Shown here piece by piece: positions 20,510-34,015 of a DNA stretch of 64,000 bases (positions within the stretch are counted from its first letter, which is position 1; the number at the start of each line of letters is the position of its first letter). The notes beneath the pieces were generated by a model. It worked only from the letters and a program-made list of their open reading frames with translations, was not told the origin of the DNA and did not search any database. Source of the DNA: Candidatus Poribacteria bacterium (GTDB lineage: Bacteria > Poribacteria > WGA-4E > WGA-3G); NCBI GenBank assembly GCA_022827625.1, contig JAJEIE010000005.1:1-64000 (forward strand). Direction: 5' to 3'. The translations under genes and the position numbers were made by a program.

Positions 20510-21310
20510 TTAGGTTGGGGATGTTAGCAGGGCGGCGATGTCTTCTGGTAGTTTAACACCATGTTTCTGCTCAAAGTCGGCAACGTTTTTGTATTCTTTG
20601 CGAAACTGTTCAATGATAATATTTGTTTGATTGTCTTTGGCAGTCGTAAGGTCTTCTTTGGCTTTTTCCCATTCTCGCAAGTGTAAAAATGCCATACCGC
20701 GATTGTAATATGCTTCAACCAAATCGGGTTTAAGTTGTATTGCCGCGTTATAGTCTTCAATTGCTCGTTGATACTCGCCTTTTTGCGAATAGGCGTTACC
20801 CCGATTGTTATGGGGATGGACAAGGTTAGGTCTCAGTTCTATTGCCTTGGTGTAGTCTTTGATGGCACGATCAAACTCGTCTCTTTCGTGGTAGACAATA
20901 CCGCGGTTGTAATAGCCGTAAGCAAAGTTCGGATCAAGTTTTATGGCTGTGTTATAGTCTTCAATGGCGCGATCTGTCTCACCTTTGAGTTTATAAACTA
21001 TCCCACGGTTGTTATATGCCACTGGCAAATCAGGATCTAATCTTATGGCTGTGTTACAATCTGTGATGGCGCGATCGTAATCACCTTTGATACGGTATGC
21101 ACTGCCACGATTGCTGTAAGCTTCGGCATAGTTTTCTTGGCGTCTAATTGCTGTGTTGAAGTCTTCAATGGCGCGATCAATTTCACCTATATTGCCATAA
21201 GCAACGCCACGATAGTTATAGGGCCTGGCAAAACTGGGTTTTTCCATAATGAGTTTGGTAAAACGTTGGATGGCGTTTTCGTTAGGATCCTGTACAACTT
21301 CGGTCTTCAT
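20510..21310 (-). CDS. TPR protein, split-off partner of the FRG protein
   Basis: 266 residues with six TPR units (consensus AYxNRGxxYxxKGxxDRAIxDYNTAI, residues about 28-235) and a C-terminal tail VADFEQKHGVKLPEDIAALL. The same tail (IANFERISGIQLPKDIAALL) ends the fused FRG-TPR protein at 22656-25229. GGAGG precedes the ATG and only 34 nt separate it from the FRG gene upstream. The TPRs should serve as a protein-binding scaffold. The enzymatic or sensing part, if any, would be the FRG neighbour. Confidence 0.85.
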   Translation of the reverse strand: MKTEVVQDPNENAIQRFTKLIMEKPSFARPYNYRGVAYGNIGEIDRAIEDFNTAIRRQENYAEAYSNRGSAYRIKGDYDRAITDCNTAIRLDPDLPVAYNNRGIVYKLKGETDRAIEDYNTAIKLDPNFAYGYYNRGIVYHERDEFDRAIKDYTKAIELRPNLVHPHNNRGNAYSQKGEYQRAIEDYNAAIQLKPDLVEAYYNRGMAFLHLREWEKAKEDLTTAKDNQTNIIIEQFRKEYKNVADFEQKHGVKLPEDIAALLTSPT

Positions 21311-21344
21311 GTTTATGCCTCCGTTATGTTTGGTGTTGCGTGTG

Positions 21345-22028
21345 TCAAGTCTTTGAAGTATCTTCGATCAACTCCATTTCGGCTTGATAAATTTCTATAG
21401 CGGTTTTCTGATGGCTGCTCTGGTCTCTAATAAACCCATGGAGATCGTTGTAGACGTTTCGTGTTGAGATACCGTGCTGTTTTTGCAGGTGATCTAATAT
21501 CGGTTCTTTAAGCAATCCGGGAATATCAATTACGTTGTACTGTTTTGATTCAAGATAACCGTTAGGCGGTCGAACGAAGACACTTTTTTGCGCTATGATA
21601 CGATTTTGAGGATTTCGAGGTTCTTTGATCTGATATTTTTTGTTTATTTCTTCATTTCTTTCCAACAAGATAATCCTGCCGGGTTTTCCAAGTGAACCAG
21701 CACATGCAAAGAAAAGGGCTATGTGGTTGTCGGTTGTAAAGTCTATTAGATTGGTATGACCGCCGTAGTGTTGAAGTTCCGTCAAGATTTCAAAATTGTC
21801 TTCTTCGTGGGTATAGCCTTTAGCTAATTCCAGCATCCGCGCTTGGATGGCTTCTATATCGAATTCCTCTGTCCCCATCTCTTTCCGACATTCACGCCAG
21901 AGACTTGAGGATACTTGCTCATAGTGTTCAGATTCGCCACGATAGATGAAGTCACCATCGGCAGTTGTCTCGGCTATCCTGCCGATTATCTCTAAAATCC
22001 TGTTTAGTTCGGTTGTCCGTGTGTTCAA
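21345..22028 (-). CDS. FRG-domain protein
   Basis: 227 residues. The FRG domain is recognised by FIYRGESEHY (about residues 27-36), ILTELQHYGGHTNLIDFTTDNHIALFFAC, IAQKSVFVRPPNGYLE and VYNDLHGFIRDQ. FRG domains have no firmly established biochemistry. The start is TTG at 22028, overlapping the stop of the mini-ORF upstream (TTGA), with GGAG 7 nt upstream, so translation is probably coupled. It aligns throughout with residues 10-230 of the fused FRG-TPR protein next door. Confidence 0.82.
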   Translation of the reverse strand: MNTRTTELNRILEIIGRIAETTADGDFIYRGESEHYEQVSSSLWRECRKEMGTEEFDIEAIQARMLELAKGYTHEEDNFEILTELQHYGGHTNLIDFTTDNHIALFFACAGSLGKPGRIILLERNEEINKKYQIKEPRNPQNRIIAQKSVFVRPPNGYLESKQYNVIDIPGLLKEPILDHLQKQHGISTRNVYNDLHGFIRDQSSHQKTAIEIYQAEMELIEDTSKT

Positions 22029-22138
22029 ACTTTGCGCTCCACGATGTGAATTTCCTCTGATGTTAAATCGTATAAGGAGTAGACAATAAGCATTGCGTCT
22101 AATCCGCGTTCGGCGAATTGATCAGAAGATAAGGTCAT
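22025..22138 (-). CDS. Mini-ORF resembling a methylase C-terminus
   Basis: 37 residues from ATG 22138 to TGA 22025. It overlaps the AbrB gene's end and the FRG gene's TTG start. The peptide contains LIVYSLYDLTSEEIHIVE, which resembles TLVYELYNLTEKEIAIVE at the end of the large methylase (25645-29244). Either it is a leftover 3' end of a deleted methylase gene that now acts as a coupling ORF, or a small peptide in its own right. Confidence 0.45.
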   Translation of the reverse strand: MTLSSDQFAERGLDAMLIVYSLYDLTSEEIHIVERKV

Positions 22139-22349
22139 CACCGCTCACCTCGGACAAGTCTAATGCCGACGGGGTCCCCATTTTGAGTTTCTCGGCGTAA
22201 ACCTCGTCCCACGTTTGGGCAGTGTAGGGCCGGATGAGGATGCCGTCGTTTGTCTTTTCAAGCACGACCCCTGATTTTAACCCTAATGCTTTCACCCGGT
22301 CGAGGGGCAATTTGATTTTATGATCAGTCTCTAACGAAAGTGTTTTCAT
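22122..22349 (-). CDS. AbrB/MazE-like DNA-binding protein (antitoxin-type)
   Basis: 75 residues. The swapped-hairpin AbrB fold is suggested by KTLSLETDHKIKLPLDRVKALGLKSGVVLEKTNDGILIRPY, followed by TWDEVYAEKLKMG. Such proteins usually pair with a PIN or MazF-type toxin, but none follows; the next genes are a mini-ORF and FRG/TPR. It may be the autoregulator of this four-gene overlapping operon. AAAGG precedes the ATG. Confidence 0.75.
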   Translation of the reverse strand: MKTLSLETDHKIKLPLDRVKALGLKSGVVLEKTNDGILIRPYTAQTWDEVYAEKLKMGTPSALDLSEVSGDDLIF

Positions 22350-22655
22350 AGTATCTACCTTTCCCTACAAATAATTGAAAAAAGTATACCACAATTTGAA
22401 TCAATTCGCAATTGTTTTAGGGGATTTGGAGTTTTTGTGAGATAATGGATTTCTCTATGGTTAGAATCTCGGATTTACGTGGATGACACGGATTTCGCGA
22501 ATTTTAAGCATCTCATATTGAGGCAACCAATGCACAAGCCTACATGCCATCCCAGCAACCTTAAACGATACAGTTTGATGACGCGAGAACCAATAATCCG
22601 CGTTAATCTGCGTAATCCGTGATAATCTGCGATTCAGATATTTTCCGTTTCACTG
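22350..22655. repeat. Spacer bounded by inverted CCGCGGAT-type repeats (copies A and B)
   Basis: GAATCTCGGATTTACG (copy A, from 22464) faces AATCCGTGATAATCTGC and GATTCAG (copy B, to 22637). This is an inverted pair of about 40-bp arms around an 90-nt unique centre. The left part (22350-22463) is AT-rich and probably contains the AbrB operon promoter. No gene. Confidence 0.6.
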
Positions 22656-25229
22656 CTATGTCTGTGGAGGTGTTAGCAGTGCGGCGATGTCTTTTGGTAA
22701 TTGAATGCCGCTTATCCGTTCAAAGTTCGCAATGCTTCCAAATGCGCTTTGAAACGTAGCAATGATATCCATTCCCATGTCTCTTGCTGTAGTCAGATCT
22801 GCTTTCGCTTTTTCCCATTCTTGCAGGCAGAACCATACTTCACCACGATTTCTATAAGCATTAGCATAGTCTGGCTTGAGTTGTATTGCTTGGGTATAAT
22901 CTCGGATAGCTTGGTCAAAATCGCCTTTTTTCATGTAAGCAACCCCACGATTGTTATATGCCTTGGCATAATCAGGATTAAGTTGTATTGCTTGGGTATG
23001 ATCCGTGATAGCCTGGTCAAAATCGCCTTTTTCCTGATAGGCGTTCCCACGATTGTCATAGGCTTCTGGAAGATCCGGTTTCAATCGTATGGCTTGGATA
23101 TAATCTTGGATGGCGCGGTCAAGATCACCTTTTTTCTGGTAAGTGTTCCCACGATTGTTACGGGCTGCGGCATCATCAGGTTGAAGTTTTATAGCGGTGT
23201 TGTAGTCATTGATAGCACTATCAAAATCTCCTTTTACTTGGTAGACACCACCTCGATGGCGATAGACCATAGCAAGAATATCTGGCTTCAATTCTATCGC
23301 CTTAGTATAGTCTCTGATGGCATTATCAAGTTCGCTTTTGGCAGCGTAAGCATTACCACGATTGTTATAGGCATTGGCAAAATTGGGTCGCTGCTGTATT
23401 GCTGTGGTATAGTCTCTGATGGCATTATCAAGTTCACCTTTGTCAGCGTAAGCACTGCCACGACCATTATAAGCATCGGCAAGATGGGGTTGCAGTTGTA
23501 TTGCTGTGGTATAGTCTCTGATGGCGTTATCAAGTTCGCCTTTATCAGCGTAAGCAATACCCCGATTGTAATAGGCTTCAGCATAATTGGGATTAAGTTG
23601 TATCGCCTTATTATAGTCCGTGATAGTGCTATCAAGTTCACCTTTGTCGGCGTAAGCATTACCCCGATTGTAATAGGTTTCAGCATCATCGGGTTGATGA
23701 AGTTTTATAGCGGCATTGTAGTCGTTGATAGCGTTATCAAGTTCGCCTTTTTTATCATAAGCAATGCCACGATTTTTATATCCTTCCGCATAATCAGGTT
23801 TCAATTCTATTGCTTGGGTGTAATTCTGGATGGCCTGGTCAAAATTGCCTTTGCTCTCGTAAGCAAGTCCAAGATAGTTATAGGCTTCAACATAATTCTG
23901 TTTAATCTGTAACGCTTGGGTACAGTCTCGGATGGCCTGGTCAAAATCACCTTTTTGTATGTAAGCCATGCCACGACCAATATATGCTTCGGCAAGATTC
24001 GGATTCAATTCTATTGCTTTGGTATAGTCTTCAATAGCACTATTAACATCACCTTTGAGTAAATAAACATTGCCGTGACCAATATATGTTTCAGCAAGTT
24101 CTGGTTCCAATTCCGTCGCTTTGGTATAGTCTTCAATAGCACTATTAACATCACCTTTGAGTAAATAAACATTGCCACGATTAAGATAGGCTCCAGCAGA
24201 TTCTGGATCTAATTCTGTCGCCTTATTAAGATCCTCAATAGCCTTGTCAGTTTTGCCTGTTCTACCGTAAGCGGTACCACGACTGCAATAAGCCGTTCCG
24301 TTATCCGGTTCCCAGTCCAACGCTTGATTAAAGCAAGCAATGGCAGCGTCAAAATCTTCCGACTTGTCATAAACGATACCGCAGCGAATATGTGCCATAA
24401 TAAGATTTGGCATCAGTGCTATGGTGTCTTTATAGAACTTAATAGATTTTTTATAGTTTTCCTGTCTTGCTTGTGGAGTTCCGGTTGTATCTCCATGTTT
24501 TTCATAGTCGTGTGCTATGTAAAATTTCACAAAAGCATCTCGATATCGGCTCTGTAATCGGATAAACCCATGGAGATCGTTGTAGATGGTTTTGTGAGTT
24601 ATAGGTGGATCTTGCCGCACCAAGTGCTTTAGAAGGGGCACTTTGAGATTTTTCGGAATACGGATAATATCCTCTGAGTTTGGTTGAATAAAGCCCTCAA
24701 GAGGTCTAACAAAAACGCTTTTCTGGGCTTCAATGCGATGAGTAGGTTCAGTAGGATTCCAAATTATGGAGTTCATCGCTTTTTGGTCTTGTACAATAAC
24801 CCTACCGTCTCTGTTGTAAGAACCATCACAAGCAAAAAATAAAGCCACGCGATAATCTGTTGTAAAATCTATCAGATTGGTTTCTCCGCCCCAATGTTGG
24901 AGCTCAGCAAGGATTTCAAATTGCCTTTCTGTATACTCAAGAGGATTGTAACCACCACCCCACATCCAGTAAAATTGCTGGCTCCGACTTTGTCCTAATC
25001 TATTGATGTCGTAATCTTGAGCTGCATACAACATTTGTTTTTGGATGCTATCCATGCCTACGTCCGCTACCTCTTGACATTTCCGGTAGAGCGTTGAGGA
25101 CACTTTCTTATAGTATTTATTTTCACCGCGATAGATATAACCGCCCCCTTTCGATTTTGCCTCTATCTCGTGGATGATGTCTTCAACTGTCTGTGGTTTA
25201 TCATTTGGTGTGCTGGATTGATTTGACAT
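22656..25229 (-). CDS. Fused FRG-TPR protein
   Basis: 857 residues. The N-terminal FRG domain (about 25-235) has YIYRGENKYYKKVSSTLY, ILAELQHWGGETNLIDFTTDYRVALFFAC, IEAQKSVFVRPLEGFI and IYNDLHGFIRLQ. After a linker, 16 TPR units occupy about 270-815, several nearly identical at the DNA level (for example at 24040-24190), so the array has expanded recently. The tail IANFERISGIQLPKDIAALL is shared with the separate TPR gene at 20510. GGAGGTGAAC precedes the ATG. It is a single-chain version of the neighbouring split FRG + TPR pair. A sensor-scaffold role in a defence island is inference. Confidence 0.85.
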   Translation of the reverse strand: MSNQSSTPNDKPQTVEDIIHEIEAKSKGGGYIYRGENKYYKKVSSTLYRKCQEVADVGMDSIQKQMLYAAQDYDINRLGQSRSQQFYWMWGGGYNPLEYTERQFEILAELQHWGGETNLIDFTTDYRVALFFACDGSYNRDGRVIVQDQKAMNSIIWNPTEPTHRIEAQKSVFVRPLEGFIQPNSEDIIRIPKNLKVPLLKHLVRQDPPITHKTIYNDLHGFIRLQSRYRDAFVKFYIAHDYEKHGDTTGTPQARQENYKKSIKFYKDTIALMPNLIMAHIRCGIVYDKSEDFDAAIACFNQALDWEPDNGTAYCSRGTAYGRTGKTDKAIEDLNKATELDPESAGAYLNRGNVYLLKGDVNSAIEDYTKATELEPELAETYIGHGNVYLLKGDVNSAIEDYTKAIELNPNLAEAYIGRGMAYIQKGDFDQAIRDCTQALQIKQNYVEAYNYLGLAYESKGNFDQAIQNYTQAIELKPDYAEGYKNRGIAYDKKGELDNAINDYNAAIKLHQPDDAETYYNRGNAYADKGELDSTITDYNKAIQLNPNYAEAYYNRGIAYADKGELDNAIRDYTTAIQLQPHLADAYNGRGSAYADKGELDNAIRDYTTAIQQRPNFANAYNNRGNAYAAKSELDNAIRDYTKAIELKPDILAMVYRHRGGVYQVKGDFDSAINDYNTAIKLQPDDAAARNNRGNTYQKKGDLDRAIQDYIQAIRLKPDLPEAYDNRGNAYQEKGDFDQAITDHTQAIQLNPDYAKAYNNRGVAYMKKGDFDQAIRDYTQAIQLKPDYANAYRNRGEVWFCLQEWEKAKADLTTARDMGMDIIATFQSAFGSIANFERISGIQLPKDIAALLTPPQT

Positions 25230-25644: not shown

Positions 25645-28600
25645 TCATTCGCGTGCCTCCACAATCGCAATTTCCTTTTCCGTTAAATTATACAATTCAT
25701 ACACCAGAGTATCAATCTCATTTTCAAGGTCGGAGGTGTCCGAATCGGGGTCGGTGTGTTTAGCAGTAATAATTTTTTCAACCAGCGTTTCCATTTCTGT
25801 AACAAAGCGTTGATTTGCTTCCGTGATAGGTGGAACAGGAAAGTTTTTCATAAACTCACTTTTAAACCTGACTCCTTTTGCACCTAAATAACCACCCGCA
25901 TAGTAATTCTTGAATGCGAAAAGAAAGAACTGTGAGTTTAATATACCGAGCAAGTAAGGCAGATTTTTGCCTGTCAACATCCGAGTTGTATCAAGTGAAT
26001 AGAATTTGTTTTTATCAATAATAAAACTCCCTTCCTTTGCCATTTCTTGCCACACAATCTTTTCCTTTTCAAATTCGGAGTAGTAAGCACAAGCTCTGAG
26101 ATTCCACCAATTTTCACCTTGATCATCTCTGTTCAAGAGCCCTTTACCTTTCGTTTTTATAATTCCCGAGTTCATCTGTTTTGCTAAGGTTTCAAGGTGG
26201 TTGAAGATAGCAGGATAATCTCTTGGAATATCCAGATCGTAACCCGTTGCAAGTAAGTATAATCCTGCTTGCTTAGTATGGTAGCGTTCAATATCACGTC
26301 CGCGTAGGAGTGGTTTGATGATTTCAGCAGACTTTGGGTCTTGTGTTATGAGCTCTTTACGTTTTGTCTCGTCTATGATGAATGCCTCATTACAACCTGT
26401 CACAATCCCACGATAGATGTTTATATCCCAGTCCTTAAGGAGTATACCTATATCCTCTATTTTGCGTTTCAAGTTAAGTTCAGCAGATGAGAGTATCGCC
26501 CACGGTTCACCCTTAGCGGGCATCTCCATCGTCGCGCCATTATCGGTCAGATACTGCGAAATGTCATCAGTCTGTTTGTCAAAGTCTGCTCTGATAGATA
26601 CACCGCTAAAGGTATCAGGGACATCAGAAACGGCGTTTTGGAATAGCAAGATGTTCGTGTCTACAGTGGCATCAAACACATCTGGTCCCATATCCAGTAA
26701 TTGAACGGGTTGGGTGTGTGCGATAAAATAGTCTCTCAACTTTTTGCCATACCCGGCGCGCATCCATTTATTGGAAGTGATAAAACAGACATATCCGTTG
26801 TTTTTCAAAAGTTGATTCGCTTTTTCATAGAACAGACAGTAAATATCACCTGTACGGGCGAAGGTATCAAAACCTTTATCTTGGTAAAGATTTCCAAGTC
26901 TACCACCTTCCTTTTGCAATTGTATATATGGCGGATTGCCAATCACTACATCAAAACCTTCCGAGACTCCAAACATCCATTCAGCGTCAAACCAACCAGC
27001 AGTAGCGTTCTGGTCGTAGGGATCCCACTTAGCAATCTTCTGGGCATCATCGGCGGGCATGCCGATACTCTTTAATTCGATTGCCAATTCGCTACGGAGT
27101 TCCGTATCCTTCTGCTTGCATGTGCGTTTCTGCTGGCGAGTGGTGGCGTGGAAATGTCGTTCGCGGTTGTCGCTCAATTCACGTTCCAAATTCTGTGCTT
27201 TTTGGCTCGTCAGTGTCCGTTCCCCTTTAAGCCCTATCAGTGTGTTTGCAGCAATAAAGCGCGTCTCCAAATTCGGCAACGGTTTTATACCGAAGTTCTC
27301 TGCGTTTCTGTCAGGTTCCTGCTCAATGGCAAGGGAGATGAAAAAGCGGAGTTTGGCGATTTGGCACGCCACGGATTGGATGTCTACACCGAAGATGCTG
27401 TTCTGAATCAGGTACAACTTCCGTCCGAAGTCAGAATCCCGGTAGCGTTTGAAGGTCTCGTCAATTTCAAGGAGTTCCTCACGCCGGGTTTGGTCGTCTT
27501 GCGTATCATACGCGACTTCGGTTCGCTGAAGTGCGCGTTCCTTCTGAAGTCGTTCCCATCGGGTGTTATCCGGGTCAAGTCGCCGTAGTGCGAGCGTGAG
27601 TTTGTGGAGCATCCCCATAGGAAACGCACCGGAACCGACTGCGGGATCCAGTATCTTGAGTTCGGAAATGGCGCGAACAATTGCGTCCGTCTCAACATCG
27701 TCAAACCATTCACTGGCATCATCAAAGGCTTGGGCATAGTCGAGGAGGTAGTGTAACCGTTCATCCCAGAGTTTTGCATCACTATCAGTTGGGTTACACT
27801 TTTGGGAGAGCGTAGCGACTAACGCTTCCTCTACCATATAGTCGACGATGGCGCGTGGGGTGTAGTAGGAACCCGTCTGTTTGCGGACGGTTGCGCCGGT
27901 TTCGGGGTTGTAGGCGGCGAGTAGGTTTTCAAACACCCTACCGAGCAGTTCGGGGTCTAATGCCACCTCCTGCTCTATCGGTGTGTTCTCCTCAACGGTG
28001 AATTTGTAGTGTTCCAGTAGGGGAATCAAGCCTTGCTGTGTATCAAAAAAGAGACGGTTGGGGATGGATAACTTCTTGTACTGATTATCCGAAAAACAGT
28101 CGATTCGGTAACTCTCGTCACCTGTCGCTTCCCAACTGTCCAGACAATCGAATAAGCCGCCGTTGATGAACGGCGTTTTGGCAAAGAGTGCCAGCAGTGT
28201 ATCAGGATCGCGCATCTGTGTTTTGTAGCGGTAGCGTGAGAAATCGCGATTTGTGGCGTAGTTTTCCCTGCTAAAACTACGTTTGTCGATTTCGGTGTTG
28301 AGTGTAGCGAAAAAGAGGTTTTGTAGGACGGCGCGGTAGTAGGCATCGCCGTCATCAAAGTCGTTTTCTGTCAGTAGGTCTTGGATTTGTGATTTGTTGA
28401 ACAAGGCATCTGCTACCAATCCTTTTTCTTTAATAAACCAGATAAAGAGCAGACGCGTGATGAGGCGGATGATATGCTCCTCCGGTTTTATGACGCGGTT
28501 TTCGTCTGTTGGGAACTTGGCTTCCGCGACTGCCCATTCAAACCACGCAAACAGTTTTCGATAGAACTGCTTGTTGAGTTCTTCGGTGTCGAGTTTGGCG

Positions 28601-29244
28601 AGCCATGCTGCAAGCAGACCGTCGAAGTTTTTCGGTTTGTTGTTGGCATCCATCCACGCTGCGCATACTTCCAGTGAGAGTTCGGAGAGGATGTCGAGAT
28701 GTGCGCGATGCGGATTGTTAAGGCGGATGTCCTTGATGAGGGTGACTTGTCCGAGGACATCAAGATTCAGGTCGTTTTGGTTTGGACGGCGATCGGTAAA
28801 GCCTATCGTCAGGTGATTTGCAACACGGAATAAAACGACAGTGGGTGCTAAGAGTCGTTTGTTGATCTCTCGTGTGAACTCGGCGTATTGGGTTCGCGAG
28901 TAGGTGTTATCTTTGAGTTCGACTGTGCAGAAAAGAAAACTGTCTGTCCAGCCTTTATCGAAAGCGTCTGACTCGAAAAGCGTTTGCCGTGCGTCATCTG
29001 TGATTTCGTCGCTTGTAAACTGGAAGACGAGCTTTACGGATTCGACGTTGTTTCGGAATGCTTGTTCTGTTTTGGTGTTAGGGGTGGGTGCCGGAAATTG
29101 TTGAATGAAATCGTCTACGGAGCCGGAGAGTTTGAGGGTGCGTTCGCTTTGGTAACCGAGTGTCGCTAAGAGATTTTTTGATTTTTCTAAGAGGTCGCCG
29201 GTGGGCATTGTCGCGAGAACGTATTTGATTGTCTCTTTGTTCAT
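25645..29244 (-). CDS. Eco57I/PglX-type N6-adenine methyltransferase, large single-chain
   Basis: 1199 residues from ATG 29244 (GAGGAG just upstream; an upstream GTG at 29280 lies in a repeat and is unlikely). SAM motif I LDPAVGSGAF at about 532-541, SYYTPRAIVDYMV before it, catalytic NPPY (GNPPYIQL) near 770, and then a TaqI-like target-recognition region (GNLYQ through IVTGCNEAFI and YYAGGYLGAKGVRFKSEF). The N-terminal 450 residues have no obvious nuclease motif. This is the methylase class used by Type IIG and BREX-like systems. The adjacent PLD/SNF2 protein could supply cutting or translocation. The last codons and the stop come from a repeat arm. Confidence 0.88.
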   Translation of the reverse strand: MNKETIKYVLATMPTGDLLEKSKNLLATLGYQSERTLKLSGSVDDFIQQFPAPTPNTKTEQAFRNNVESVKLVFQFTSDEITDDARQTLFESDAFDKGWTDSFLFCTVELKDNTYSRTQYAEFTREINKRLLAPTVVLFRVANHLTIGFTDRRPNQNDLNLDVLGQVTLIKDIRLNNPHRAHLDILSELSLEVCAAWMDANNKPKNFDGLLAAWLAKLDTEELNKQFYRKLFAWFEWAVAEAKFPTDENRVIKPEEHIIRLITRLLFIWFIKEKGLVADALFNKSQIQDLLTENDFDDGDAYYRAVLQNLFFATLNTEIDKRSFSRENYATNRDFSRYRYKTQMRDPDTLLALFAKTPFINGGLFDCLDSWEATGDESYRIDCFSDNQYKKLSIPNRLFFDTQQGLIPLLEHYKFTVEENTPIEQEVALDPELLGRVFENLLAAYNPETGATVRKQTGSYYTPRAIVDYMVEEALVATLSQKCNPTDSDAKLWDERLHYLLDYAQAFDDASEWFDDVETDAIVRAISELKILDPAVGSGAFPMGMLHKLTLALRRLDPDNTRWERLQKERALQRTEVAYDTQDDQTRREELLEIDETFKRYRDSDFGRKLYLIQNSIFGVDIQSVACQIAKLRFFISLAIEQEPDRNAENFGIKPLPNLETRFIAANTLIGLKGERTLTSQKAQNLERELSDNRERHFHATTRQQKRTCKQKDTELRSELAIELKSIGMPADDAQKIAKWDPYDQNATAGWFDAEWMFGVSEGFDVVIGNPPYIQLQKEGGRLGNLYQDKGFDTFARTGDIYCLFYEKANQLLKNNGYVCFITSNKWMRAGYGKKLRDYFIAHTQPVQLLDMGPDVFDATVDTNILLFQNAVSDVPDTFSGVSIRADFDKQTDDISQYLTDNGATMEMPAKGEPWAILSSAELNLKRKIEDIGILLKDWDINIYRGIVTGCNEAFIIDETKRKELITQDPKSAEIIKPLLRGRDIERYHTKQAGLYLLATGYDLDIPRDYPAIFNHLETLAKQMNSGIIKTKGKGLLNRDDQGENWWNLRACAYYSEFEKEKIVWQEMAKEGSFIIDKNKFYSLDTTRMLTGKNLPYLLGILNSQFFLFAFKNYYAGGYLGAKGVRFKSEFMKNFPVPPITEANQRFVTEMETLVEKIITAKHTDPDSDTSDLENEIDTLVYELYNLTEKEIAIVEARE

Positions 29245-29571
29245 GTTCTCCTCAATTTTTTCTGAATCTCGGATTAGCACGGATTTGTCAGATTTCGCGG
29301 ATTATAGGGTTTTTGTGTAATGGCGTTTTGTTGTCTGCAGTCAAACCGATTTACAGTGAAATCTGAGCACTTCTTGGTACGACGGGCAATGAATTGCCCT
29401 ACTACGAACGGATGTTTGTTAACGGATAAGTGTCTACATAATTCTAAGTTTTACTGTAATAAACGAGGATAAAATCCGCGAAATCTGGGTCATCCGCGTC
29501 AATCCGCGATTCAGACAATACGCATAGTCTTCATTCGTAAAAAAACACGTTGACTGTGCTTATATTGACAC
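29245..29571. repeat. Spacer bounded by inverted CCGCGGAT-type repeats (copies E and F), containing a CTAC-tailed palindrome
   Basis: Copy E (29262-29305, GAATCTCGGATTAGCACGG) faces copy F (29471-29515, AATCCGCGAAATCTGGG ending GATTCAG). Within lies GGGCAAT (29384-29390), GA, ATTGCCC (29393-29399), TACTACGAACGG. No gene. Confidence 0.65.
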
Positions 29572-29925
29572 CTATGAGGCAATTGCGGAACTCTCTTTAG
29601 TATCTTCAAGATGTAGATTTGTAGTTGACAGTAGTGCCGATAGTTGACATCCAAGCGCATTAAGAATGGTCATAAGCGTGTCAATCTTTGGTATTTCCGT
29701 TCTATCCAACACTTTCGATAGGAGGCATGGTTCAATGTTTATTTTTTTGGCGAGTTCGGAAATTCCGCCCTGCGCTTCAGCGACATACTGGAGAGCCAAC
29801 TGAATTGTGGTGAGATTCCCGTGAATCTGATACTCTTCCATGACTGCGTCGAGAAAACCGATCACATCTTCTTTTTCGGTGAGTTGTTCAATGAGAAAAG
29901 CATGCCATGTTCCGTAAACTTTCAT
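29572..29925 (-). CDS. HigA-like addiction-module antitoxin (HTH)
   Basis: 117 residues from ATG 29925, chosen because GGAGAGG lies just upstream; the frame is open to 29955. The region LTTIQLALQYVAEAQGGISELAKKINIEPCLLSKVLDRTEIPKIDTLMTILNALGCQLSALL is the XRE-type helix-turn-helix of the COG3636 antidote family. Its ATG overlaps the stop of a short upstream reading frame whose peptide looks like the end of the matching toxin, so the normal toxin-then-antitoxin order is preserved but the toxin is lost. It may now regulate the island. Confidence 0.8.
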   Translation of the reverse strand: MKVYGTWHAFLIEQLTEKEDVIGFLDAVMEEYQIHGNLTTIQLALQYVAEAQGGISELAKKINIEPCLLSKVLDRTEIPKIDTLMTILNALGCQLSALLSTTNLHLEDTKESSAIAS

Positions 29926-29991
29926 CGTTTGTCCCTCTCCTTGTATTCCTTCCAATAGTTTTTTGCGCGTTCAATATAGAGTTCAACAGAA
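29922..29991 (-). pseudogene. C-terminal stub of a RelE/HigB-type toxin
   Basis: The frame directly upstream of the antitoxin reads YIERAKNYWKEYKERDKR then TGA, overlapping the antitoxin ATG as toxin genes usually do. AKNYWKEYKER resembles the end of COG3657-type killer proteins. Upstream of it the sequence changes to a CTAC-tailed palindrome (29992-30014), so the remaining roughly 80 codons are gone. This is inference from a short stretch. Confidence 0.5.
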
Positions 29992-30098: not shown

Positions 30099-33000
30099 TC
30101 AAGATTGTTGGTTTGTGATGATTAGCCATGTTACTAATTCAAAATCGCTGGCGTCTCTGGGAGTTTCGGAGGCGACTGGCAATCTGAAACCGCGGGTGCC
30201 ATCTCGTCCTATGCTTTTGGTTTGGGTTTTTTGATGGGAGCGTGTGATGTGCGCAATGACGGCGTTCAGCAGTTTGTTGTAGACTCCCATGTTCTTGCCG
30301 TGTTGGGTCTCTTGGTCGAATTGGAGACACAATTCTGACAACGTATGGCTTTTTCCGACAGCGGACGCTTCAAATAGGTCTAACACCTGTTTGGCGTTTG
30401 TGCAACCGTAACGGATGTCGCCGTTTTTGCGGATGTAGACTGTGTAATAGGGATAGATTGGACTGGGTGTCTTTTTCTCTTTATCCGTTGTGGTGTTAAG
30501 CTGCTGAAGGAAGAAGATAATCCCGGTTTCTGTTGGATTGTTTTCGTTGGTGGTGACGGCGTACGCACCCTTTGGTGTGGCTTCTAATTCAGCCCTGTTC
30601 CTTTCGAGATACTTTAGGAGCTGCGCGAAGAAGTAGTCGAACGTAAAATCGCTCATAACGACACCATCAGAGAGGTCGTCAAGGTCTAAGACATCTTCAC
30701 GGAGCTGCTTCAATTGCGCGTCACGAAAATTGAGTTCCATCTGTGCTTGTTCGTAGGTGAAGTCGTTCAACGGATCGTCATCGCCACTGGCGGCTGCGTC
30801 TGCGAGTGCCATGCGAGATTCTACACGGGTCTGTAAACGGAGATACACCTCCATGTCTTCGGTGGGCCAGTAGTTAATCATCTTTATAGAAGTGTTACGA
30901 CTCCCAATGCGATCTATACGACCAAAGCGTTGGATAATACGGACAGGGTTCCAGTGGATGTCGTAGTTGAGGACGGTATCACAATCCTGAAGGTTTTGTC
31001 CTTCTGAGATACAGTCCGTGGCGATGAGAAGGTCTATTCCATCAGCGGTATTGTCAGCACCGATTCGCGCCCGTGGGGCGAAGTTGTTCAAGATAGCGTT
31101 AAAGTTGTTTTGTCCGCAGGTGGTTTGTGTACTGTCTCCAGAGACCATCGCCGTATTCAGATTTAATTCCGTCGCGAGACCCAACAGTTCTTTGTAAAGA
31201 TAGACAGCGGTATCCTTAAAGGTCGTAAAAACCAGCATCTTACGGTTGGCATTTTGTGCTTTTGTGCGAATATGTGCCTTGATTGAATCGAGTTTACCGT
31301 CTCGTTCAGGCGTGATGGCTCTGACTTTATCCCACGCAGCGGTTAACGTCTGTTTGTCCTTGAGGAGATCTTGCTTCCAGCCGGTACAATCCAACTCACG
31401 GAGATGATAGGGATTGCGGGCGCGATTGATTAGAAATTCTTCATCGTCATCGTCTTCATCGGGTAAGATGTCGGCTTGTGCGTCCTGTATACGCGGGTGC
31501 TGTTGGTACTTCTCGATCTTTTCCAGCATATCGTCAATTTTGCCGACAGTGCGTTCAAGCGTCTCCGAGAGGGCGTGTGCGGAACTCTCCAAACGCTTGA
31601 GGAAGTTGGTTTGCATCATCCCGATGAGGAACCGTTCACGGTCTTCTTGGTTGAAACGGAATTTCTGTTTCTCAACCGCCAATCGCTGTTTCGCTTTCTC
31701 ACTGGTAACGTAGCTGGACGGTCTATAGATAGAAAGTGCGAATTCACCAATCTGATCCGCCAACGCTTTATAGGAGAGTTCACCTGTCAAATCGGTGGGT
31801 GGATGGCAATTCTCCGGTTTTTCTGGTGTCGGAAAGTCACCAATCCGTTCAATTTCGTCGGCATAGAATTTCTTAATGTGCCGTCGGGAACGGGCAATAG
31901 AGACACCGCCGAGGAGTTGAAAGAAATCGGCACCGAGTGCCTCCAACAACTTCGCTTTGTCTCTTTTGGCATTTCCGTTGCTGTCTTCTTCCCATGTTTT
32001 AAACGCCTTTTGTGCTTGTCGGAGCAGTGAACCGATATTACCGATGCCCAGACTATCCCTGAAGACGTCCTCTCGCTTTTCGGTCATCAGATAGATTTGA
32101 TTGCGGAGGTCTATGAGTGAAGTGTTGACAGGGGTCGCCGATAGCATTAGGACCTTTGTTTTTGTGCCTTCCTTGATAACCTCTTCTAAGAGACGAGAAT
32201 AACGGGTATGGCGGCGGTTGCCATCTTTGTCCTCACGAGGTTTGCTGTCGTTTCGGAAGTTGTGGGATTCGTCAATCACGATCAGATCGAAATTCCGCCA
32301 ATTGAAATTTTCTAAATTGACCCCACCAGCGTCACCGGTGTAGCGCGAAAGGTCGGTGTGTGCAAGGAGTGTGTAACCGAACTTGTCATCAAGGAACGGG
32401 TTGGTGTCTTGCGAATTGTATGCGGGATAGCGTGCCCAATTGTCTTGCAGTTTCTTGGGGCATAACACCAGCACGCGCTCATTTCGTAACTCAAAGAATT
32501 TAATAACGGCGAGTGCTGTGTAGGTTTTTCCCAATCCTACGCTATCTGCCAATATACAGCCGTTGTGACGCAACAGACGGGCGATTACGCTTTTGGCACC
32601 CTCTTTCTGGAAATCGTACAACGTTTTCCAAATTTCCCTGTCGTACAGATGTGTATCCTCAAGGGTCTGTTCGTTGGTTTTTCGGGTTTCAATCTCATCA
32701 CGGAAGAGTTCGTAGAGGGTTTTGTAGTAGATGCGCTCAGGTGCGTGGTCTCTTCCTATCTGTTCTAACTTGGCAAGGACTTGCTCCTTGACATCTTCAA
32801 CGAGTTTATCGTTATGCCAGAGTTCGTCAAACCACGCCTTGAGGTCGGTTCGGTCGCGATCGTCACGCACCTCAAGATTAAGTTCAATGTTGCTGTTATT
32901 TGAACTGAGTCCGAGTCCGCGCATCGTAAAGTTGGAGCTGCCGAGAATTGCTTTGTCAACGCCGTTGTTGGTGATATGGTACATTTTCCCGTGTATCAGA

Positions 33001-33365
33001 TTTGATTCGCGGGTTGTGCGGATTTCTACCTTCTCTTCTATCCATTTGGCGCACGCTTTGGCAATCGGTTTCTGTCGGAGTTGCTGGTTGAGTTGTAAGC
33101 CTGTATCTGTTATATCAAACGCTTTTGTATCTGTATTATTCGGATCCATACGTTTGACAAAATCAGGGTCACCAAAGAGAAAACGGAGTTCCTCTATTTT
33201 GTTGAGGGAGTGTTGCATCTTTTCATAGGCATAGATGGTGAAGTAGGCGGATACGATGGAGAGTGCGGAACCGTTCTTAATTTCCTGTTCTAAGAAGTCG
33301 TGGACTGTTTCACGGAGCAGGTTATCTCTAATACCAGATTTTATGGATGCGTTTTTGTTTGACAT
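30099..33365 (-). CDS. PLD-nuclease/SNF2-helicase fusion (HepA-like)
   Basis: 1088 residues. An N-terminal phospholipase-D-like module has HGKMYHI (near 124) and GSSNFTMRG (140-149), one HKD-type half site. The SNF2/DEAD-like ATPase follows: ADSVGLGKTYTA (Walker A, near 275), VIDESHNFRND (DESH, near 363), LSATPVNTS and the C-terminal RecA motifs ATDCISEGQNLQ and RFGRIDRIGS (near 815). The order is PLD, RecA1, helical insert, RecA2, long C-tail. Such PLD-SNF2 proteins occur beside Eco57I/PglX methylases in defence islands. It should translocate on DNA and perhaps cut it. The ATG lacks a strong ribosome site. Confidence 0.88.
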   Translation of the reverse strand: MSNKNASIKSGIRDNLLRETVHDFLEQEIKNGSALSIVSAYFTIYAYEKMQHSLNKIEELRFLFGDPDFVKRMDPNNTDTKAFDITDTGLQLNQQLRQKPIAKACAKWIEEKVEIRTTRESNLIHGKMYHITNNGVDKAILGSSNFTMRGLGLSSNNSNIELNLEVRDDRDRTDLKAWFDELWHNDKLVEDVKEQVLAKLEQIGRDHAPERIYYKTLYELFRDEIETRKTNEQTLEDTHLYDREIWKTLYDFQKEGAKSVIARLLRHNGCILADSVGLGKTYTALAVIKFFELRNERVLVLCPKKLQDNWARYPAYNSQDTNPFLDDKFGYTLLAHTDLSRYTGDAGGVNLENFNWRNFDLIVIDESHNFRNDSKPREDKDGNRRHTRYSRLLEEVIKEGTKTKVLMLSATPVNTSLIDLRNQIYLMTEKREDVFRDSLGIGNIGSLLRQAQKAFKTWEEDSNGNAKRDKAKLLEALGADFFQLLGGVSIARSRRHIKKFYADEIERIGDFPTPEKPENCHPPTDLTGELSYKALADQIGEFALSIYRPSSYVTSEKAKQRLAVEKQKFRFNQEDRERFLIGMMQTNFLKRLESSAHALSETLERTVGKIDDMLEKIEKYQQHPRIQDAQADILPDEDDDDEEFLINRARNPYHLRELDCTGWKQDLLKDKQTLTAAWDKVRAITPERDGKLDSIKAHIRTKAQNANRKMLVFTTFKDTAVYLYKELLGLATELNLNTAMVSGDSTQTTCGQNNFNAILNNFAPRARIGADNTADGIDLLIATDCISEGQNLQDCDTVLNYDIHWNPVRIIQRFGRIDRIGSRNTSIKMINYWPTEDMEVYLRLQTRVESRMALADAAASGDDDPLNDFTYEQAQMELNFRDAQLKQLREDVLDLDDLSDGVVMSDFTFDYFFAQLLKYLERNRAELEATPKGAYAVTTNENNPTETGIIFFLQQLNTTTDKEKKTPSPIYPYYTVYIRKNGDIRYGCTNAKQVLDLFEASAVGKSHTLSELCLQFDQETQHGKNMGVYNKLLNAVIAHITRSHQKTQTKSIGRDGTRGFRLPVASETPRDASDFELVTWLIITNQQS

Positions 33366-33397: not shown

Positions 33398-34015
33398 CTA
33401 ATCAGAAAATGTGACGCGTTCGTAGATTTCCCGTAAAGGCAGTTCGCATTGGATGGAGGGGAGTGATAAAATTTCCTCAAGCTCTCGGCAGTCGGTGAAA
33501 ATCCAGCCCTTTCCAGTAACGGGGACACTTTCCTGTTTTTCTTGGCGGCGGTAGTGTTCAACAAGGACTTTGTCTTGGGCGACGAGGACATATTCCTGCA
33601 ACGACGCGAGTTGTCGGTAATGTCCGAATTTTTCACCGCGATCATAAGCCTCGGTTGAGGGTGAGAGGACTTCTACGAGAATAATGGGGTTAAGGAGTAT
33701 GTCAAAGACATCGTCTTCAAAACGAGGTTCTTCACAAACGATGACGACATCTGGATAAAAATAAGATTTTGCTGCGGGAATACTAACACGCATTTCGTTA
33801 GCGAAAACAGAATTTGTAGTGCCTTTCAAGCGCGTGTGGAGTTCACCAGCGATATTGCCTGTAATAAGATTATGTGCCCGGTTAGGACTGGACCTTGGGA
33901 TTATTTTACCATTGACGTATTCACTCCTGACTGTTTCAGCGTCAGGAATTGCTTTGCGTTCAAAAGTAATGTATTCCTCGGGTGTGAGGCGTGTTTGTGC
34001 TGCAGGGGTTGCCAT
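33398..34015 (-). CDS. Uma2-family (DUF820) putative endonuclease
   Basis: 205 residues. Uma2 family signature: RSEYVNGKII, HNLITGNIAGELHTRL, SYFYPDVVIVCEEP (PD of the PD-(D/E)XK core), PIILVEVLSPSTEAYDRGEKFGHYRQLASLQEYVLV. The ExK-like element is E-V in LVEVLS followed by the conserved R-x-x-K stretch, as in the family. The function of Uma2 proteins is uncertain; they are abundant in cyanobacteria and Poribacteria and show a restriction-endonuclease fold. GGAGG precedes the ATG. It is 32 nt upstream of the helicase gene and may be cotranscribed. Confidence 0.87.
   Translation of the reverse strand: MATPAAQTRLTPEEYITFERKAIPDAETVRSEYVNGKIIPRSSPNRAHNLITGNIAGELHTRLKGTTNSVFANEMRVSIPAAKSYFYPDVVIVCEEPRFEDDVFDILLNPIILVEVLSPSTEAYDRGEKFGHYRQLASLQEYVLVAQDKVLVEHYRRQEKQESVPVTGKGWIFTDCRELEEILSLPSIQCELPLREIYERVTFSD

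Follow-up and report, generated by a model that had tools for sequence, protein, structure and literature searches.

Fused and split forms of a predicted anti-virus FRG-TPR protein recur in many copies in sponge-symbiont Candidatus Poribacteria

The window, a stretch of 64,000 nt of Candidatus Poribacteria DNA, carries on its minus strand a run of genes in which FRG and TPR modules occur both in a single protein and in two adjacent genes (Table 1). An earlier sequence-only reading had described one chain with FRG and 16 TPRs beside a separate FRG gene and a gene for 6 TPRs, the latter two 34 nt apart, and Pfam bears out this gene content. The fused protein matches TPR_1 in 15 stretches and TPR_2 in 16, and PF08867 scores 52.0 and 48.3 bits in the two FRG proteins, compared to a Pfam gathering cut-off of 25. 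Profiles of the PADLOC candidate family PDC-S15 also match both (E 1.2e-21 and 5.6e-13).

Table 1. Features of the FRG-TPR locus, in window coordinates
Feature	Coordinates	Strand	Evidence and remarks
TPR gene of split pair	20510..21310	-	6 TPRs + tail, 266 aa; TPR_1 in 6 stretches (Pfam)
Tail module, split TPR protein	20516..20710	-	53% to fused protein's tail, E 1e-15; model helices 231-263
Ribosome-binding site GGAGG of split TPR gene	21318..21322	-	within 34-nt spacer 21311-21344
FRG gene of split pair (clade A)	21345..22028	-	227 aa, TTG start; PF08867 E 1.3e-13; PDC-S15 E 1.2e-21
Possible remnant of the C-terminus of a type IIG enzyme, immediately upstream of split FRG gene	22031..22087	-	19 aa, 58%, E 0.003 to last residues of 25645-29280 (tblastn); suggestive only
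Fused FRG + 16 TPR + tail protein	22656..25229	-	857 aa; PF08867 E 2e-12; PADLOC
Tail module, fused protein	22659..22856	-	sequence match to split protein's tail
FRG domain within fused protein	24486..25214	-	~40% identical to split FRG
Type IIG-like restriction-modification enzyme (Eco57I + TaqI_C)	25645..29280	-	415 nt upstream of fused gene
HTH, addiction-module-antidote-like protein	29572..29955	-	PF21716 E 3e-8; island neighbour
PLD + SNF2 helicase, defence type	30099..33365	-	PADLOC C3a139 HKD+Snf2 E 1.3e-111; island neighbour
Uma2 family putative endonuclease	33398..34015	-	PF05685 E 3.9e-30; final island gene, metabolic genes beyond

Both split genes are under purifying selection. When compared to L127, the closest pair, dN/dS is 0.11 for FRG and 0.17 for TPR, and three ortholog comparisons for each gene, all within clade A, gave 0.10-0.20; for this clade we therefore reject the possibility that they are pseudogenes. 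The GGAGG motif sits 7 nt ahead of the ATG of the split TPR gene. A small frame between the split and fused genes (22122-22349, searched as 22125-22349) matched no Pfam family. The two FRG copies are only ~40% identical and lie far apart in the FRG tree, and we therefore reject a recent fission of one gene inside the window. Fused and split forms thus stand side by side as two lineages, and these comparisons indicate that the window holds two old FRG lineages within one defence island rather than a gene caught splitting.

To place the locus among its relatives, we surveyed FRG genes in 30 genomes of the genus. The genus listing summed to 152 FRG matches, from which some contig-edge or very partial ones were left out; the loci retrieved yielded 139 FRG ORFs, and exclusion of 12 partial ones (fewer than 180 of 239 columns) left the 127 near-complete genes on which the genus counts rest. 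FRG was fused to TPRs in 76 of them, and 37 were members of split pairs, the TPR gene lying -80 to +34 nt away. Our own TPR profile under-detects, since 12 of the 14 remaining proteins, which it scored as having few or no TPRs, match Pfam TPR_1. TPRs therefore accompany 125/127 FRG genes, either within the chain or in the adjoining gene. The 37 pairs have the features of two-gene operons, being co-directional and close, with a ribosome site of their own for the TPR gene and, in clade A, constraint on both genes. Nine of ten inspected split TPR genes are preceded by GGAG; the tenth (L123) reads GGGGA.

Split pairs occupy three clades of the FRG tree, within which the split state is constant: it changes three times on the tree, compared to a mean of 32.3 for shuffled states, and none of 500 shuffles gave a value as low. 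Constraining all 37 split FRGs to one clade, a grouping named after the tree was seen, gave p-AU 0.028, so that a single origin of the split pairs is weakly rejected on the tree. Exactly three independent splits are likewise unsupported, as joining clades A and B raises the likelihood by 13.5 units (p-AU 0.671); two of the three split clades may be one.

The sequence-only reading had also proposed that both window TPR chains end in a shared tail outside the TPR units. An alignment of the two C-termini covers 64 residues, 53% of which match (E 1e-15, taken for one genome). In the model of the split TPR protein, the tail forms three short helices (231-239, 243-250 and 256-263; block pLDDT about 86-91) that come after the last TPR-like hairpin, and it is therefore not a canonical TPR unit, as had been suggested. 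A fold search with this model returned TPR proteins and was uninformative on the tail. Across the genus, the tail is present in 36/37 split TPR partners and in 51/76 fused genes. The proposal that FRG, TPRs and tail act as one unit, in one or two chains, is upheld by these counts and by co-occurrence across the phylum, where 64 of 84 genomes have both FRG and tail, 16 neither and only 4 one without the other. For a putative complex of the FRG and TPR chains, which the sequence-only reading proposed, the evidence is the existence of fused and split forms.

The tail is not, however, specific to FRG. Six near-closed genomes contain 39 tail proteins, of which 18 are linked to FRG, 6 bear TIR (Pfam TIR_2 being verified in two of these) and 15 show neither; certain tail proteins terminate in UPF0175 or a TaqI_C specificity domain. 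FRG is thus absent both from the chain and from the position directly upstream in 21/39, and the sequence-only reading's own ground for doubt, a tail common in proteins lacking an FRG neighbour, is half borne out. By these sequence comparisons, FRG and TIR effectors have a TPR-tail module in common. The same 21 proteins would suit the view that FRG-TPR adjacency is a by-product of ubiquitous TPR genes, the tail being a generic C-terminal cap in TPR proteins of the order. We disfavour this view and regard it as most improbable, given the near-universal presence of TPRs in or next to FRG genes, the clade-constant split state and the co-occurrence of FRG and tail by genome.

We then considered the FRG part, whose family has as its mark a conserved (F/Y)RG close to the N-terminus. 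R30 and G31 are invariant in 24 FRG sequences and at least 90% conserved in 75, and R30 and H87 are conserved in the FRG alignment. The catalytic residues of ADP-ribosyltransferases (ARTs) are of the R-S-E or H-Y-E type. The FRG alignments (24 and 75 sequences) contain no invariant Glu, and the spot resembling the ART (Q/E)xE motif reads QxS (Q147, S149), so that catalysis by FRG is not assured. The model of the split FRG protein (pLDDT 92.2) was compared to known folds with VIA-align, and among the matches listed, 50/50 were entries that we take to belong to the ART superfamily or to be ART-like, at Z 5.2-7.4, all below 8 and at a level that the tool calls middling. Foldseek gave no match at E <= 0.001, and a profile search of PDB sequences with FRG did not find an ART; one marginal match, at E 0.019 to the entry of a protein kinase, was judged to be chance and rejected as a solved relative. 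By the VIA-align matches, the FRG model resembles the ADP-ribosyltransferase fold at this middling level. The resemblance fits a published prediction that presents Frg as an ART-superfamily antiviral effector, possibly an NADase (PMC9503650); candidates such as PDC-S15 are termed uncharacterized (PMC12482510). The earlier statement that no such system had been described was accordingly too strong.

FRG-TPR genes are in part linked to restriction genes. A type IIG, type III Mod-like or HsdR_N-like gene lies within 700 nt of 22/127 genus FRG genes, on the same strand in 22/22, and in the six genomes, which have 11 strong type IIG genes, an FRG-TPR gene follows 96-415 nt downstream of five. None of the 37 split FRGs has such a restriction gene within 700 nt. 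Relatives of FRG occur in other phyla, and in Entotheonella, Dehalococcoidia and Chloroflexota MAGs a type IIG gene lies 275-690 nt upstream of FRG. We conclude that some fused forms of FRG have an operon-like linkage to restriction-modification genes, with few lineages behind it. In viral_contigs, 0/95 pattern matches were confirmed as relatives, and phage records gave four weak matches, none covering 80%.

A different setting is seen for split clade B, which lies at a chromosomal site adjoining sulfatase-like genes in 16/17 cases, outside any defence island (for the seventeenth, the available stretch contains no upstream gene). This conserved site, together with the abundance of TPR proteins in Poribacteria, could indicate that the FRG-TPR unit is a resident enzyme of signalling or metabolism in the symbiont, unrelated to immunity, with the TPRs as scaffold. 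We find this distinctly unlikely. These sponge-symbiont bacteria bear many copies of the predicted anti-virus protein, and FRG copy number varies from 1 to 10 in the genus sample and from 0 to 11 across the phylum; further points against a resident enzyme are the restriction genes close to FRG, the match to the candidate family PDC-S15 and the relatives in other phyla.

With a probability of roughly 0.6, we favour the reading of FRG-TPR-tail as a predicted effector-sensor that acts against phage inside the cell. FRG would be an ADP-ribosyltransferase-like enzyme head, going by the modelled fold, and the TPR array, usually ending in the three-helix cap, the sensor. The TPR-tail part would keep the enzyme inactive and would sense infection, either through a phage protein or through upset of a neighbouring restriction system; FRG would then attack NAD+ or ADP-ribosylate a host target, and the cell would be stopped. 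Were enzyme and sensor to bind each other, they could be joined either by a peptide bond or through protein-protein contact, and for this reason one-gene and two-gene forms could both persist.

The split pairs could also be toxin-antitoxin modules, in which a TPR-tail antitoxin neutralises an FRG toxin with no phage sensing and the fused forms are self-inhibited relics. Two short, tightly coupled genes fit such an arrangement, as do other TPR-tail proteins of the same genomes that are fused to UPF0175, a family that we presume to have an antitoxin role; in locus L040, the gene after such a protein presumably resembles a PIN toxin. We nevertheless hold this to be unlikely, because the toxin-then-inhibitor gene order is unusual for toxin-antitoxin pairs, the fused form is in the majority and the same TPR-tail also bears TIR. 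Moreover, TPR number in clade B ranges from 6 to 18, unlike an antitoxin with one fixed partner, although collapsed repeats in draft assemblies may distort these counts; TPR number is near constant in the two other split lineages.

The effector-sensor reading can be set against known systems. By Pfam and PADLOC profiles, the domain is that of the FRG/Frg proteins, from which the present proteins differ in that FRG is tied to a TPR array and a special tail, in one or two chains, and is partly restriction-linked; no description of such an arrangement was found in the literature searched. Bacterial TIR-TPR proteins have the same layout, a predicted NAD+-using domain and a TPR array, and in these genomes they have the same tail and at times the same C-terminal TaqI_C domain; their effector head is TIR instead of FRG. 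Two likenesses are of working only. PrrC/RloC-type effectors guard restriction systems, PrrC being an anticodon nuclease of type I loci. The scheme in common would be a killing effector whose gene adjoins a restriction-modification gene; in the present case the neighbours are type IIG, type III Mod-like or HsdR_N-like genes, and the effector is a predicted ART enzyme. NLR-like/STAND sensors combine an N-terminal effector with a C-terminal repeat array of variable length; no STAND NTPase family is among the Pfam matches listed for the scanned FRG proteins.

What appears new is the TPR-tail module common to FRG and TIR effectors, with its split and fused forms, and the operon-like linkage of FRG-TPR to type IIG, type III and HsdR-like restriction genes. 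More speculatively, and with well under even odds, Poribacteria and some other phyla might possess a family of modular immune proteins whose TPR-tail sensor carries interchangeable NAD+-attacking heads (FRG or TIR), as one chain or as a complex encoded by two genes, and which would form the suicide arm of restriction-modification loci. Versions that terminate in a type IIG-like TaqI_C target-recognition domain would then read DNA sequence directly, as a sequence-specific trigger of NAD+ depletion. Since some FRG effectors are tied to three kinds of restriction gene, the idea of a restriction-guarding NADase is directly testable. FRG proteins are common and are predicted to be antiviral effectors; the literature searched offered no tested mechanism for them. 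The 37 split pairs, beside the 76 fused genes, amount to a natural dissection of effector and sensor, and they name the partner with which FRG should be co-expressed.

All 30 sampled genomes of the genus contain FRG. Loci were scored against profiles derived from the genome to which the window belongs and from an alignment of the tail, and the census took in FRG genes covering at least 180 of the 239 profile columns (n = 127), leaving out twelve partial FRG ORFs. Sixty-six genes were fused to TPRs, ten were fused with an additional downstream TPR gene, and 37 formed split pairs with intergenic gaps of -80 to +34 nt; the other 14 had few or no TPRs by our own profile, and Pfam TPR_1 matched 12 of these. 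The sequence-only reading had proposed that FRG, TPR and tail form a functional unit of one or two polypeptides, and the census bears out a one- or two-chain unit of FRG and TPR, with or without the tail, with 76 fused and 37 split genes. The tail was carried by 36 of the 37 split TPR partners and by 51 of the 76 fused proteins. A third layout was seen at L160, L096, L183 and L216, where the gene after a fused FRG-TPR-tail gene encodes TPR and tail on their own (278-295 aa, gap -4 to +33 nt).

Genes of the window island that holds the fused and split forms
Feature	Position	Strand	Remark
TPR + tail, 266 aa	within 20510-25229	minus	one of three genes there
FRG, 227 aa, TTG start	within 20510-25229	minus	one of three genes there
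FRG + 16 TPR + tail, 857 aa	within 20510-25229	minus	one of three genes there
type IIG-like enzyme	25645-29280		island member with the three FRG/TPR genes
HTH protein			island member
PLD-SNF2 helicase			island member
Uma2 gene			island member

In the window, the split TPR-tail gene has its own GGAGG and is separated from the FRG gene by 34 nt. The dN/dS values of this pair against its nearest relative, L127, were 0.11 for FRG and 0.17 for TPR. Metabolic genes flank the island, with a Gfo/Idh/MocA dehydrogenase and a xylose-isomerase-like gene at one end and SGL, PurS and PrmA genes at the other. Among named genomes, close relatives come from Candidatus Poribacteria MAGs, on which the placement of the window rests. 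An open frame of 403 aa runs antisense to the TPR array (22701-23912, plus strand) and is most likely an artefact of the TPR repeats.

In a quick IQ-TREE analysis of the FRG domain (127 rows), the 37 split genes fell into three clades, A (n = 10, including the window's pair), B (n = 17) and C (n = 10), each 100% split, and the split state required 3 changes, compared to a mean of 32.3 after shuffling. Joining A and B in one clade was not rejected (p-AU 0.671), and a single clade for all 37 genes was weakly rejected (p-AU 0.028). Because of these results, we consider the split form ancient and stable, and the number of conversions between forms as probably two or three. TPR partners in clade A measured 265-267 aa in 9 of 10 cases. 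An alignment of 16 partners from named contigs, in which several of these loci recur, gave this length for 13 and 263, 264 and 324 aa for the other three. TPR number was 10-11 in clade C and ranged from 6 to 18 in clade B, where FRG stayed at 219-255 aa and 16 of 17 loci shared a chromosomal site adjoining genes that read as sulfatase-like from their sequence.

The FRG model (pLDDT 92.2) gave no match at E <= 0.001 with Foldseek alone. All 50 structural matches listed for it (Z 5.2-7.4), including Tpt1/KptA and bacterial ADP-ribosylating toxins, were ADP-ribosyltransferase-superfamily or ART-like entries. Conserved residues were R30, G31, H87, T92, D96, R143, Q147, K174 and D195; no glutamate was invariant in the FRG alignments. 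One paper describes Frg as an ART-superfamily domain and potential antiviral effector that might be an NADase (PMC9503650).

The tail, modelled as a three-helix cap, was found in 66 of 84 phylum genomes, almost all from one order, and FRG likewise in 66. Both were present in 64 genomes, the tail alone in 2, FRG alone in 2 and neither in 16 (Fisher p 3e-13, relatedness ignored). G038, a genome from another family of the class, had eight tail and three FRG matches, and its five searched family mates have neither, which suggests joint transfer. The idea that the tail is special to the FRG unit did not hold: among 39 tail proteins of six near-closed genomes, FRG was in the chain in 13 and encoded directly upstream in 5, 6 carried TIR and 15 had neither. 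Twelve loci outside Poribacteria comprised five with FRG, TPR and tail, five with FRG and TPR lacking the tail, and two with no TPR by our own profile.

Other domains follow the tail. UPF0175 was seen C-terminal to it in six proteins; at L040:6200-7613, one such TPR-tail-UPF0175 protein precedes a gene that we take to resemble a PIN toxin. In some proteins about 350 aa behind the tail resemble the C-terminal end of the type IIG enzyme: 14 of 16 tail proteins with extensions above 100 aa matched that part, and Pfam TaqI_C was found in both of the two tested. The 14 include five FRG proteins (L091, L092, L101, L167, L196) and five single-chain TIR-TPR-tail proteins (L039:3920-7849, L088, L114, L119, L220), each a possible DNA-sequence-reading TIR protein.

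In the genus census, a restriction-type gene lay within 700 nt of 22 FRG genes, on the same strand in 22/22: type IIG upstream of seven, type III Mod-like near ten and HsdR_N-like near five, with Pfam confirming one Mod and one HsdR_N representative. Conversely, 5 of the 11 type IIG-like genes in the six genomes (E < 1e-30) were followed by an FRG-TPR gene at a distance of 96-415 nt. In loci from Entotheonella, Dehalococcoidia and Chloroflexota, FRG was preceded at 275-690 nt by a type IIG gene. No type IIG, Mod-like or HsdR_N-like gene lay within 700 nt of any of the 37 split pairs; for seven of them, a type IIG gene was no more than 4.5 kb away. The genome of the window has its third FRG gene on contig C29 (L043:7320-8672), where it shares 38 nt with a type III Mod-like gene. 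At L101:5395-10371, L092:8686-11346 and L196:2336-7612, effectors of FRG, TPR, tail and type IIG-like C-terminus lie directly downstream (218-371 nt) of a full type IIG gene; in L092 and L196 this C-terminus shares only 25-26% identity with that of the neighbouring enzyme.

Beyond the composition, conservation, linkage and fold likeness of FRG-TPR-tail documented here, the most economical account is a predicted effector-sensor immune protein whose halves would bind each other, so that the peptide bond between them would be optional. TPR-tail would inhibit FRG until infection, or damage to a neighbouring restriction system, acts as trigger; FRG might then attack NAD+ or ADP-ribosylate. Burroughs and Aravind 2020 is reportedly the key earlier paper on Frg. 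The literature searched, in part accessible only as excerpts, yielded no description of FRG with TPR as a system.

A P2-like phage record (LR595870.1:30979-32343, L300) contains a hypothetical FRG-like gene that runs in the opposite direction to the genes around it, in this respect like cargo.
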